A stretch of 64,000 bases of DNA from assembly GCA_001767525.1 (NCBI GenBank), contig MELF01000049.1, forward strand, positions 1 through 64,000. The letters are read 5' to 3'. Origin of the DNA: Acidobacteria bacterium RIFCSPLOWO2_12_FULL_68_19 (GTDB taxonomy: Bacteria > Acidobacteriota > Vicinamibacteria > Vicinamibacterales > UBA2999). Numbering within the stretch: the first letter of the stretch is position 1; the number at the start of each line of letters is the position of its first letter. The notes beneath the pieces were generated by a model. The model saw only the letters and a program-made list of their open reading frames with translations, ran no database searches and had not been told where the DNA came from. Of the stretch, positions 33,249 through 47,797 are shown one piece after another. Both the position numbers and the translations under genes were made by a program.

Positions 33249-34100
33249 GTCGTCCGGCAGACGGCGGTAGTCGAACCACTCGATCGCATGATCGACGACG
33301 AGCCGGCGGAACAGCACGGCCCGACCGCGGCCGCTGAGCGTCAGCTTCGTCGGCATCCACAGGCCGTCGCCAACGGGCTTGCGCGTCACGGTGGCGGTGG
33401 TGCCTTCGCCGAGCCGTGCGACGATTCCCAGTCCGTACGAGATGTCCTCGATCGAAGTCGCCTCGATCTGCATCACCTCTGCGGCTCTCTCGTCGACCCA
33501 GACGGTCCCGGCGAACTTCTGTGCCACGCGCCCAGGCCTGGTCGTCGGCTTTGCGCCGGTTCTGGGCCTGAACGCGATCACAATCGCCGGCACGCCCTTG
33601 TACAACGTGCGGCCCTCGACGTCGAACTCGAGTGCGTCGACGACGTCGTCGATGGCCCGCTGACGCCGCTGACGGGCACGGGCGGACTCGTCTTCGATGA
33701 AGCGCTCCTCGTCCGAGCCGCCGGCCCCGCGCTCGAGGAGGACTTCGGCCGCGTGCGCCCGGTACTCGCGGTCCTGGCGGGCGATCTCGCGTGCAGGAAC
33801 CGGCGCGCCGTTCCGTTCGACGACGCGGCGGTAGACGAGCTCGCGAACGGGCGAGGGATACACCTCGTACAGGCTGACGCCGCCGGTGCCGAGGCGCCCG
33901 AATGGGTTCGTGTGGACGTCGGTGCGACGCTCGCGGTAGGTATAGAGATGGTTGGCCCGCTCGGCACGCGCGAGATTCTCCCGCACCTGGCGGTAGAACG
34001 TGTCGCGATCCGGCAGCGGATCGCCGTTCTGGGCGCGCCCGCCGCTCCAGCCGACGGCCAGCGCGGCGACGGTGGCGAGCGCCCGCGCTGGCAGCCTCAT
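33192..34100 (-). CDS. secreted protein of unknown function, lipoprotein-carrier-like
   Basis: A 302-residue protein with a signal peptide ending GGRAQN. The mature domain has long strands and positions such as EFDVEGRTLYKGVPAIVIAFRPR, FAGTVWVDERAAEVMQIEA and GDGLWMPTKLTLSGRG, reminiscent of the LolA/LppX unclosed barrel, but the similarity is pattern-level only. The start overlaps the aminotransferase stop (ATGA, 34097-34100), so it is the second gene of a coupled pair. Its 3' end overlaps the convergent flippase-like gene by 57 bases. Confidence 0.6.
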   Translation of the reverse strand: MRLPARALATVAALAVGWSGGRAQNGDPLPDRDTFYRQVRENLARAERANHLYTYRERRTDVHTNPFGRLGTGGVSLYEVYPSPVRELVYRRVVERNGAPVPAREIARQDREYRAHAAEVLLERGAGGSDEERFIEDESARARQRRQRAIDDVVDALEFDVEGRTLYKGVPAIVIAFRPRTGAKPTTRPGRVAQKFAGTVWVDERAAEVMQIEATSIEDISYGLGIVARLGEGTTATVTRKPVGDGLWMPTKLTLSGRGRAVLFRRLVVDHAIEWFDYRRLPDDSLAPFLDARVHGEAGRGP

Positions 34101-35251
34101 ACGCGACGGAGCTTGTCCGCCGCGCGTTCGAGCGTCTCGTCGCGCTTGGCGAAACAGAATCGCAGCACCGGGCCCGGATCCGCGCCGGAGAGGAACGGGG
34201 ACACCGGAATCGACGCGACACCATGCTCCTTCAGCAGCCGCAGGGCGAACGCCGCGTCCCCTTCGTCGGTGATCGCGGAATAGTCCACCATCTGGAAGAA
34301 CGTGCCGCGGCAGGCCAGCGGGCGGAAGCGGGAGCCGTCGAGGAGCCTCAGGAAGAGGTCGCGCTTGGCCTGATAGAACGCCGTCACCGCTTCACAGCGC
34401 GGATCCCGACTCACCACCTCGGCGTACGCGCGCTGAATCGGCGTGTTGACGGCGTAGGTCACCCACTGGTGGACCGAGGCGACGGCGGCGGCCAGCGGTC
34501 GCGGCGCCGCGCAGTACCCGATCTTCCAGCCCGTGGTGTGGTACGTCTTTCCAAATGAGCTGATGACGACCGCTCGATCCGCGATCTCCGGGTACCTGGC
34601 CATGCTCTCGTGCCGCGTCCCATCGAAGACAATGTGCTCGTACACTTCGTCGGAGACGACACACGCTTCCGTGCCTTGCAGGAGGCGCGCCAGCTCGCGC
34701 ATGTCGTCGCGGTCGAGCACCATCCCCGTCGGATTGTGGGGCGAGTTCACGAGAATCACTCGTGTGCGCGGCGTGACGGCGCGCCGGACTTCGTCCCAGT
34801 CGATGCGGTAGTCGGGCCGCCGCAGCGTCACGTACACCGGCGTGCCGCCGCTCAACTGAACCGCAGGCGTATACGAGTCGTACGCGGGCTGGAACAGCAG
34901 GACCTCGTCGCCCGGCCGGACGAGCGCGGTGAGCGTACTGAAGATCCCTTCGGTGGCGCCGGCGGTGACGCAGATTTCGGCGGCCGGATCGTAACGGCGC
35001 CCATAGAGCAGCTCGATCTTCCGAGCGAGCGCCTCGCGCAGCGGGTACGCGCCGAGCATCGGCGCGTACTGGTTGTGCCCGTCCCGCATGCAGCGCGCAA
35101 CCGCCTCCACCAGCTCGGGCGCACAGTTGAAATCGGGGAATCCCTGTCCGAGGTTGATGGCGCCGTGCTCTTCGGCCAGGCGCGACATCACCGAAAAGAT
35201 GGTGACGCCGGCGGCTGGCAGCTTCGACAGAACGGTCCGAGTGGACGACAC
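34097..35251 (-). CDS. class I/II PLP aminotransferase
   Basis: A 384-residue fold-type I aminotransferase of the kynurenine/methionine aminotransferase (YbdL-like) group. Visible are INLGQGFPDF, the NSPHNPTG motif, VVSDEVYEHIVFDG and the PLP lysine in ISSFGKTYHTTGWKIGY. It should move the amino group of an aromatic or sulfur amino acid to a 2-oxo acid. The GTG start lies exactly six bases after TAAGAT (35263-35258), without a Shine-Dalgarno: a leaderless message is likely. The gene begins 38 bases from MITE-like copy 2. Confidence 0.88.
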   Translation of the reverse strand: MSSTRTVLSKLPAAGVTIFSVMSRLAEEHGAINLGQGFPDFNCAPELVEAVARCMRDGHNQYAPMLGAYPLREALARKIELLYGRRYDPAAEICVTAGATEGIFSTLTALVRPGDEVLLFQPAYDSYTPAVQLSGGTPVYVTLRRPDYRIDWDEVRRAVTPRTRVILVNSPHNPTGMVLDRDDMRELARLLQGTEACVVSDEVYEHIVFDGTRHESMARYPEIADRAVVISSFGKTYHTTGWKIGYCAAPRPLAAAVASVHQWVTYAVNTPIQRAYAEVVSRDPRCEAVTAFYQAKRDLFLRLLDGSRFRPLACRGTFFQMVDYSAITDEGDAAFALRLLKEHGVASIPVSPFLSGADPGPVLRFCFAKRDETLERAADKLRRV

Positions 35252-45342: not shown

Positions 45343-45756
45343 TCAGGCCTGAATGGGTTCCGGCCGGATCGGCACCGGCCGCCAGGCGTCGTCGACCGCG
45401 ACCAGCACCACTTCCGCCTCCGTCACCTTCACTCGCTCGCCGCGCCCGGGCCCGCGGGCGCCGCCCGGCGGGACGCCCCACCGCTCGGCCTCGACCGAGA
45501 CGCGCACGGTAATCGAGGTCCGGCCCACCCGCACCGTCTCGGTATAGAAGCTGACGATGTCGCCCAGGAAGACCGGTTCGTGGAACTCCACCTCGCGCAT
45601 CGCGCGGGTGACGTACCGGTGCGGCGCCGCCTTCCGCGCCTCCACCGCCGACGCCAGGTCGAGGTGCGACAGGATGACGCCGCCGAAGATGGTGCCGTAG
45701 GCGTTGGTGTCCTTCGGCAGCAGGACCAGTCTGATGGCCGGCACACGTTCAGGCAT
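45343..45756 (-). CDS. hotdog-fold acyl-CoA thioesterase (YciA-like)
   Basis: A 137-residue thioesterase with the family motif NAYGTIFGGVILSHLDLASAV (the Asn-x-x-Gly-x-x-Phe-Gly-Gly segment and the catalytic Asp) and VFLGDIVSFYTETVRVGRTSI. It hydrolyses acyl-CoA to free acid and CoA; acyl preference is unknown. It is first in the operon thioesterase-thrC-pepF-DUF5916. A five-codon ORF with a better Shine-Dalgarno (45766-45749) overlaps its start, as described separately. It is divergent from speA with 94 bases between. Confidence 0.85.
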   Translation of the reverse strand: MPERVPAIRLVLLPKDTNAYGTIFGGVILSHLDLASAVEARKAAPHRYVTRAMREVEFHEPVFLGDIVSFYTETVRVGRTSITVRVSVEAERWGVPPGGARGPGRGERVKVTEAEVVLVAVDDAWRPVPIRPEPIQA

Positions 45757-45797
45757 GGCGATTCATTTTTCCTCTTTTCGATTCGAACAAGAAGCCT

Positions 45798-45854
45798 TAC
45801 TCTGTAACGGTGAACGATCGCCCAGCCCGGATGCGCTGTCCGACCGGCGGATGA
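45798..45854 (+). promoter_or_regulatory. speA promoter and 14-codon leader ORF
   Basis: TACTCT (45798-45803) lies exactly six bases before a GTG at 45810. This GTG opens a 14-residue ORF, VNDRPARMRCPTGG, whose TGA (45852-45854) overlaps the speA ATG as ATGA. No Shine-Dalgarno precedes speA itself. The simplest reading is a leaderless leader peptide that couples ribosomes onto speA; three of its 14 residues are arginine, the substrate of the enzyme. Confidence 0.55.
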
Positions 45855-47797
45855 GCACGATGACCAACGGGCGCTCGTCACCGGCGGTGGCGAGCACCTC
45901 GTCGACCGGTGCCTGGAGCGTGCATGACGCCAGCGAGCTCTACGAAGTGGCGCGCTGGGGGCACGGGTACTTCTCGGTCAACGGCGACGGTCACGTCGCC
46001 GTCCATCCCACCAAGGATCCGGCCCGGGTCATCGACCTCAAGGAGCTCGTCGATCGGCTGCAGCTCCGCGGGATCAGCCTCCCCGTCCTCATCCGCTTCA
46101 CCGACATCCTGCGCCATCGCCTGGGCGAAATCCATGCGGCCTTCCAGGGGGCGATTGCGCAGAACCAGTACCACGGGGGCTATAGCTGCGTCTATCCCGT
46201 CAAGGTCAACCAGCAGCGGCAGGTCGTCGAAGAGGTGCTCGACTTCGGCCGCCCGTACGGCTTCGGCCTGGAAGCCGGCTCGAAGCCGGAGCTGCTGGCG
46301 GTGGTGGCGCTGGCCGACAACGAGACGCCCATCATCTGCAACGGCTTCAAGGACGCCGAGTTCATCGAGACGGCGATGCTCGGACTCAAGATCGGGCGGA
46401 ACATCATCCCGGTTGTGGAGAAATACACCGAACTCGCCCTCATCCTCGAGGCGGCTGAGAAGATCGGCGTCCGGCCCCAGATTGGCGTCCGCGTCAAGCT
46501 GGCGGCCCGAGGCAGCGGGCGCTGGCAGTCCTCCGGCGGGTTCCGGTCGAAGTTCGGCCTGACGGTCACTGAAATCATCCGGGCGCTGGAGGAGCTGCGG
46601 GCCTGCGGGATGCAGGATTGCCTCACGCTGCTCCACTTCCATCTGGGCAGCCAGATCACGAACATCCGCATCGTCAAGGGGGCGCTGAACGAGGCGGCGC
46701 GCCTCTATGCGGAGCTCTCCCGGCTGGGCGCCGGGCTGCAGTACCTCGACGTGGGCGGCGGGCTGGGCGTCGACTACGACGGCTCCCAGACGAACTTCGA
46801 GTCGAGCATGAACTACACCCTCGAGGAATACGCCAACGACGTCGTCTATCACATTCAGACGGTGTGCGACGAAACGGGCGTGCCGCACCCGACCATCATC
46901 TCCGAGAGCGGCCGTGCGGTGGTGGCGTACCACAGCGTGCTCGTGTTCAACGTGCTCGGCGTGTCGGGCTTCGGCGCCGAACAGGTGCCGGCCACCGCCA
47001 ACCCGGACTGGGAGCAGCCGCTGGTCGACTTGGTGGAAGCCTACAACAACGTGACGGCGCGCAACGCGCTCGAGGCGTTCCATGACGCCCAGCAGTCGCT
47101 CGACATGGCGATCAGCCTGTTCAACGGCGGCTACCTTCCCCTCGAGCAGCGCAGCATGGCCGAGAACCTCTTCTGGGCGATCTGCACCCGGCTCCAGAAG
47201 ATCGTCCAGACGATGGCGGAGGTGCCGGAGGACCTGCAGAACTTGGACGAGCAGCTGTCGGACACGTATTTCTGCAATTTCTCGCTGTTCCAGTCGATTC
47301 CCGACAGCTGGGCGATCAAGCAGCTCTTTCCGGTCATGCCGATTCACCGGCTGGGCGAAAAACCGGCGAACCACGCAGTGCTCGGCGACATCACGTGCGA
47401 TTCCGACGGCAAGCTCGACCGGTTCGTCGATCGGCGCGACGTCAAGAAGACGCTGCCGCTCCATACCGTCAATGGCGGACCGTACTACCTGGGCGTCTTC
47501 CTCGTCGGCGCCTACCAGGAGATCCTGGGCGACCTCCACAACCTGTTCGGCGACACGCACGCCGTGCACGTCAGCCTCGACCCGAACGGCGAGGTGCGCC
47601 TCGACACGCTCATCAAGGGGGACACGGTTCGAGAGGTGCTCGACTACGTCGAGTTCGACGCGGAGATCCTGCTCGGGAAGCTGCGCACCGACGTTGAAAC
47701 GGCCGTACGCGCCGGACGGATCGACTACGAAGGGGCGGGCCGGCTGCTCCGCTTCTACGAGGACGGGCTGCACGGGTATACCTATCTCGAAGGGTGA
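45851..47797 (+). CDS. speA: biosynthetic arginine decarboxylase
   Basis: A 648-residue PLP enzyme making agmatine from arginine, the first step of one putrescine route. The PLP lysine is in YPVKVNQQRQVVEEV, followed by GLEAGSKPELL, the substrate-pocket segment LLHFHLGSQITNIR and GGGLGVDYDGS, and the C-terminal region LHNLFGDTHAVHVSL. Length matches SpeA. The frame is open upstream to 45704 across the thioesterase gene, but the ATG at 45851 is favoured by the leader ORF that overlaps it. No agmatinase gene is in the window. Confidence 0.95.
   Translation: MSTMTNGRSSPAVASTSSTGAWSVHDASELYEVARWGHGYFSVNGDGHVAVHPTKDPARVIDLKELVDRLQLRGISLPVLIRFTDILRHRLGEIHAAFQGAIAQNQYHGGYSCVYPVKVNQQRQVVEEVLDFGRPYGFGLEAGSKPELLAVVALADNETPIICNGFKDAEFIETAMLGLKIGRNIIPVVEKYTELALILEAAEKIGVRPQIGVRVKLAARGSGRWQSSGGFRSKFGLTVTEIIRALEELRACGMQDCLTLLHFHLGSQITNIRIVKGALNEAARLYAELSRLGAGLQYLDVGGGLGVDYDGSQTNFESSMNYTLEEYANDVVYHIQTVCDETGVPHPTIISESGRAVVAYHSVLVFNVLGVSGFGAEQVPATANPDWEQPLVDLVEAYNNVTARNALEAFHDAQQSLDMAISLFNGGYLPLEQRSMAENLFWAICTRLQKIVQTMAEVPEDLQNLDEQLSDTYFCNFSLFQSIPDSWAIKQLFPVMPIHRLGEKPANHAVLGDITCDSDGKLDRFVDRRDVKKTLPLHTVNGGPYYLGVFLVGAYQEILGDLHNLFGDTHAVHVSLDPNGEVRLDTLIKGDTVREVLDYVEFDAEILLGKLRTDVETAVRAGRIDYEGAGRLLRFYEDGLHGYTYLEG

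Follow-up and report, generated by a model that had tools for sequence, protein, structure and literature searches.

The speA gene in the window (the 64,000-nucleotide stretch of DNA analysed here) is preceded by a 14-codon mini-ORF which, on balance, is probably a leaderless, RTGA-coupled ORF delivering ribosomes to a speA start codon that has no Shine-Dalgarno (SD) sequence of its own; the RNA start, the translation of the mini-ORF and its coupling to speA are predicted from sequence comparison. According to the proposed mechanism, a leaderless transcript would begin at GTG 45810, and ribosomes would initiate on this 5'-terminal GTG, translate the 14 codons, terminate at the TGA at 45852-45854 and re-initiate on the overlapping, SD-less speA ATG at 45851. 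The peptide would be incidental, and the ORF would keep speA supplied with ribosomes after the ancestral leaderless start had left the promoter. speA has probably lost its usual position at the RNA end, and the mini-gene located there now probably only brings ribosomes.

The mini-ORF and its junction with speA

The speA gene encompasses 45851..47797 on the plus strand and encodes a full-length biosynthetic arginine decarboxylase of 648 residues, identified by an NCBIfam equivalog match (TIGR01273, 787 bits; NF003763). The mini-ORF occupies 45810..45854 of the same strand and encodes VNDRPARMRCPTGG from GTG to TGA (codons GTG AAC GAT CGC CCA GCC CGG ATG CGC TGT CCG ACC GGC GGA TGA), with its stop overlapping the speA start in the tetramer ATGA (45851..45854). 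Direct reading thereby confirmed the 14-codon ORF opened by a GTG at the predicted RNA start and its ATGA overlap with speA, both of which had been described in an earlier sequence-only reading of this DNA. The same tetramer is found in the relatives L083, L085, L087 and L093. This overlap comes free, because speA of most relatives opens with ATGAGC and any ORF arriving there in the right frame terminates.

The predicted RNA start (+1), the first base of the GTG at 45810 on the plus strand, lies 41 nt before the speA ATG and 6 nt after a -10-like hexamer, TACTCT (45798..45803, plus strand), from which it is separated by the spacer GTAACG (45804-45809). The full stretch from the hexamer through the mini-ORF to the speA start reads TTACTCTGTAACGGTGAACGATCGCCCAGCCCGGATGCGCTGTCCGACCGGCGGATGAGCACG. 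TACTCT matches the -10 consensus at three of six positions, has no clear -35 element and does not form part of any scoring consensus sigma-70 promoter at the window's speA leader. Its assignment as a putative -10 box is based on comparison with relatives, in which TACTCT (L083 and L087), TACCCT (L085) or TATTCT, one change away, is found.

SD-like matches were scored against the common anti-SD sequence, which was assumed because no 16S was found in the window's genome. ATG 45851 is preceded by a negligible match (-1.1 kcal/mol compared with a median of -3.0 kcal/mol inside genes), bearing out the earlier claim that speA lacks an SD of its own. A moderate match (-5.5 kcal/mol) was found upstream of an alternative in-frame speA ATG at 45860..45862 on the plus strand, 9 nt inside the gene, although approximately 23% of positions inside genes match the anti-SD as well as this. 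The possibility that speA itself begins at the RNA end, with a longer in-frame N-terminus, was rejected, as no in-frame ATG, GTG or TTG is present between 45810 and 45851; in L085 and L093 such a longer speA is excluded by closure of its reading frame within the leader.

The same intergenic region also lies upstream of a divergent gene for a hotdog-fold acyl-CoA thioesterase (PRK10694-like; 45343..45756, minus strand). This gene is preceded on the minus strand, at 45749-45766, by AGAGGA and a 5-codon ORF (MNRHA) with its stop just inside the thioesterase gene in a different frame; the ORF is not evident in the congener.

Leaderless and displaced speA starts in relatives

speA loci were gathered from a genome collection as well as from the genome, family and order to which the window belongs, yielding 92 distinct acidobacterial loci. 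In 81 of these a TATNNT-like -10 box preceded the in-frame RTG of speA itself by 4-15 nt, compared with 3.2% of shuffled upstream sequences and one of 19 planctomycete loci, indicating that speA is normally leaderless or nearly so. The boxes (TATCAT, TATTCT, TATGAT, TATTAT and TAGAAT) mostly lie 6-9 nt before the start, typical examples being TATCAT gaacgc GTGAGT and TATCAT gatgccggc ATGAGC. TATTCT is the box in 21 of the 81 directly leaderless loci, and the 6-nt gap between hexamer and GTG in the window matches the closest-spaced relatives (a gap of 6-7 nt in 36 of the 81).

A leaderless signal was also found across the window's genome, sampled as 442 kb in 19 stretches containing 341 genes. 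TANNNT was enriched 6-12 nt before first-gene starts (33 at 7 offsets) and fell to well under one per offset beyond 17 nt, and an SD at or below -6 kcal/mol was present at 5% of TA-led starts compared with 32% of other starts. In total, approximately 40 of the 341 genes (about 12%) look leaderless, which, together with the boxes of the relatives, backs the leaderless start that the earlier reading had predicted. TA-led leaderless bacterial genes were previously reported to carry TANNNT approximately 10 nt before the start codon and to make up on average 13.3% of genes in Acidobacteria, close to the proportion in this sample (Zheng et al., 2011; PMC3160421). However, the TA signal in the window precedes the mini-ORF and not a gene: the signature, expected approximately 6-14 nt before a start, is absent from speA itself, the ATG of which lies 47 nt after the box. 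Taken together, the relatives' boxes and the TA signal in the window's genome suggest that leaderless speA is the usual and probably also the ancestral state in the order.

The window's clade displays a minority arrangement in which the speA start is shifted 27-118 nt from the box. In the speA tree the displaced loci require several state changes, the window and its congener (L083, same genus) being sisters, and most displaced lineages have a 5'-terminal RTG opening one to three mini-ORFs that reach speA. TACTCT is followed in L083 by 7 nt, ATG, 14 codons and ATGA, and in L087 by 13 nt, ATG, 5 codons and ATGA. A chain of two ORFs spans 118 nt before speA in L085, where TACCCT and 7 nt precede an ATG with 15 codons, TGActtgATG, a further 20-codon ORF and ATGA at speA; the second mini-ORF sits in a low-complexity CCCTAGCCCC stretch. 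The chain in L093 consists of three ORFs covering 116 nt in the roughly 120 nt before speA (TATCAT, 8 nt, GTG with 24 codons, TGATG, a 6-codon ORF, GTGA, a further 6-codon ORF and ATGA at speA). In L091, TATCAT and 9 nt are followed by GTG, 5 codons and a stop, with the speA ATG 5 nt further on and the usual ATGAGC mutated to CTGAGC. No mini-ORF link was found in L095 and L035, in which speA is likewise displaced. A general rule, by which the order would keep between one and three mini-ORFs, overlapping as TGATG, GTGA or ATGA, as a ribosome relay from the RNA end once the leaderless start has been displaced, is a tentative extrapolation that we consider doubtful; under such a rule the window's 14-codon ORF would be the one-step case and the two ORFs of L085 and the three of L093 longer chains.

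The congener keeps the 14-codon ORF, free of indels, and the ATGA, at a leader nucleotide identity of 70%, while the encoded peptides are unrelated (MSDRRRPMSGTPAG compared with VNDRPARMRCPTGG in the window). Differences between the two genomes at codon positions 1/2/3 number 6/6/3 in the leader ORF and 19/14/181 in speA, so that the linkage rather than the peptide has been kept, in this one congener only; the selected feature, if anything, would be the link. Loss of the leader frame among relatives, which the sequence-only reading had named as a refuting condition, gave a mixed outcome: frame and overlap are kept in the genus, but beyond it the leader is missing from most of the order, because speA there starts at the RNA end. 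The further proposal that speA depends on the leader through the ATGA is plausible and moderately supported by the missing SD, by the congener's retention of frame, length and overlap and by the similar links in other displaced lineages, from which we infer the coupling itself.

Alternative explanations and related systems

Alternatively, the leader could be a plain 5' UTR with speA starting SD-less at ATG 45851, or at ATG 45860 by means of the weak GGCGGATGAG match, the +1 GTG and the ATGA being a coincidence made likely by the high G+C content and by speA's ATGAGC start. This was considered unlikely, although several results speak for it. In dinucleotide-preserving shuffles of the leaders, a 5'-terminal RTG connected to speA by its ORF chain arose with a probability of 0.05-0.11 per locus (0.089 for the window, and 0 for L095, the leader of which cannot yield one). 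Ten out-of-frame 5'-terminal RTGs were found in the 442-kb sample, of which the window's is the only coupled one, approximately the chance rate, and no genome-wide excess of coupled leaderless ORFs was seen in this sample; the unconstrained peptide and the SD-like match at ATG 45860 point in the same direction. However, that match is weaker in L083 (-3.3 kcal/mol) and L087 (-1.9 kcal/mol), the congener keeps frame and length, and most displaced lineages likewise have a 5'-terminal RTG from which a chain leads to speA. Under relay rules allowing a gap of 5-9 nt and a stop-to-start distance of -1 to +8 nt, the strict form of the link was present in four of seven displaced lineages, the window and its congener being counted once, with a combined probability of ~6e-4; this post hoc figure is suggestive only, because the rules were fixed after the cases had been seen and L035 entered with an assumed value. 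Chance still accounts for part of the mini-ORF pattern.

It is less probable still that TACTCT is not a -10 box and that speA is read from another RNA start with a longer 5' UTR. The poor consensus match of TACTCT and the lack of a scoring sigma-70 promoter would fit such a start, as would the sharing of the intergenic region with the divergent gene, which could account for the conserved CTTACYCTGT. On the other hand, TACYCT is followed 6-7 nt later by RTG in L001, L083 and L085, and 21 relatives have the almost identical TATTCT as their evident box.

An arginine- or polyamine-responsive leader, in which stalling on Arg codons or a bound ligand would alter the translation or transcription of speA, appears very improbable: three Arg codons do precede the arginine decarboxylase, as they do in the congener (codons 4, 5 and 6), but three are ordinary for random stop-free 13-codon stretches (mean 2.3, P>=3 = 0.40), the peptide and any run of sensed codons are not conserved, no third-position excess of differences is seen in the ORF, and most relatives have no leader at all. 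The three codons noted earlier as lying near the end of the peptide are present, but are located mid-peptide (positions 4, 7 and 9 of 14). Neither a terminator-like site near the leader on the speA strand nor an Rfam match in the leader was found, leaving no sign of a terminator-based or RNA-switch alternative. Arginine attenuation was rejected as an explanation on the non-conserved peptide, the neutral codon-position pattern and the chance Arg count, and the earlier proposal of tuning by stalling is unsupported. Codon content alone is no basis for inferring amino-acid sensing in a short leader ORF.

SpeFL is an ornithine-dependent arrest peptide encoded before speF in enterobacteria. The window's ORF resembles it in lying ahead of a polyamine-pathway decarboxylase gene, but is set apart by description, having no conserved arrest motif or attenuator and belonging to another gene family and organism. 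Cysteine-rich leaderless uORFs of mycobacteria, proposed as attenuators, are likewise short leaderless ORFs before metabolic genes with codons for a related amino acid; however, unlike the window's peptide, theirs are conserved and enriched in that amino acid (PMC4633059).

A closer likeness is to the leaderless 'coupled' small ORFs of mycobacteria, which begin with an RTG at the 5' end of the RNA, run for 5-50 codons and end in a TGA that overlaps the start codon (RTG) of the following gene, with the linkage conserved and the peptide not, and which were suggested to deliver ribosomes independently of peptide sequence (Shell et al., 2015; PMC4633059). With its RTG at the predicted RNA end, 14 codons, RTGA overlap and linkage kept without the peptide, the window's mini-ORF is a probable member of this kind in a new phylum, recognised from sequence alone. 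Leaderless RTGA-coupled small ORFs may thus also occur in Acidobacteriota. The case looks like a derived replacement, because the downstream gene is itself leaderless in relatives, and what is distinctive is the series of relatives whose mini-ORF chains appear to reconnect a displaced start to a leaderless promoter. The nested series before speA (direct leaderless, one, two and three ORFs) amounts to a set of natural constructs, which would probe whether 5'-terminal initiation and re-initiation can replace an SD site.

Further observations on speA distribution and leaderless starts

A full match to speA is missing from nearly all genomes in two families of the order (f13 and f14), and the gene is therefore patchy. 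Two divergent speA genes from another family of the order (L252 and L253; 54-57% identity over the N-terminal part) start with TTG, preceded by an SD-like GGGAGGAGAAAG, and lack the leaderless signature. Three records labelled Bifidobacterium breve or Acidimicrobiia (L025, L007 and L015) carry an acidobacterial speA grouping with Acidobacteriota, which suggests that they are probably mislabelled genomes. Sets of aminotransferase and CoA-transferase loci yielded no clean displaced cases with which to test the relay independently. The class I/II aminotransferase gene of the window (34097-35251, minus strand) itself displays a leaderless signature (TAAGAT, 6 nt, GTG), and similar boxes are present in many of its relatives (L144-L173).
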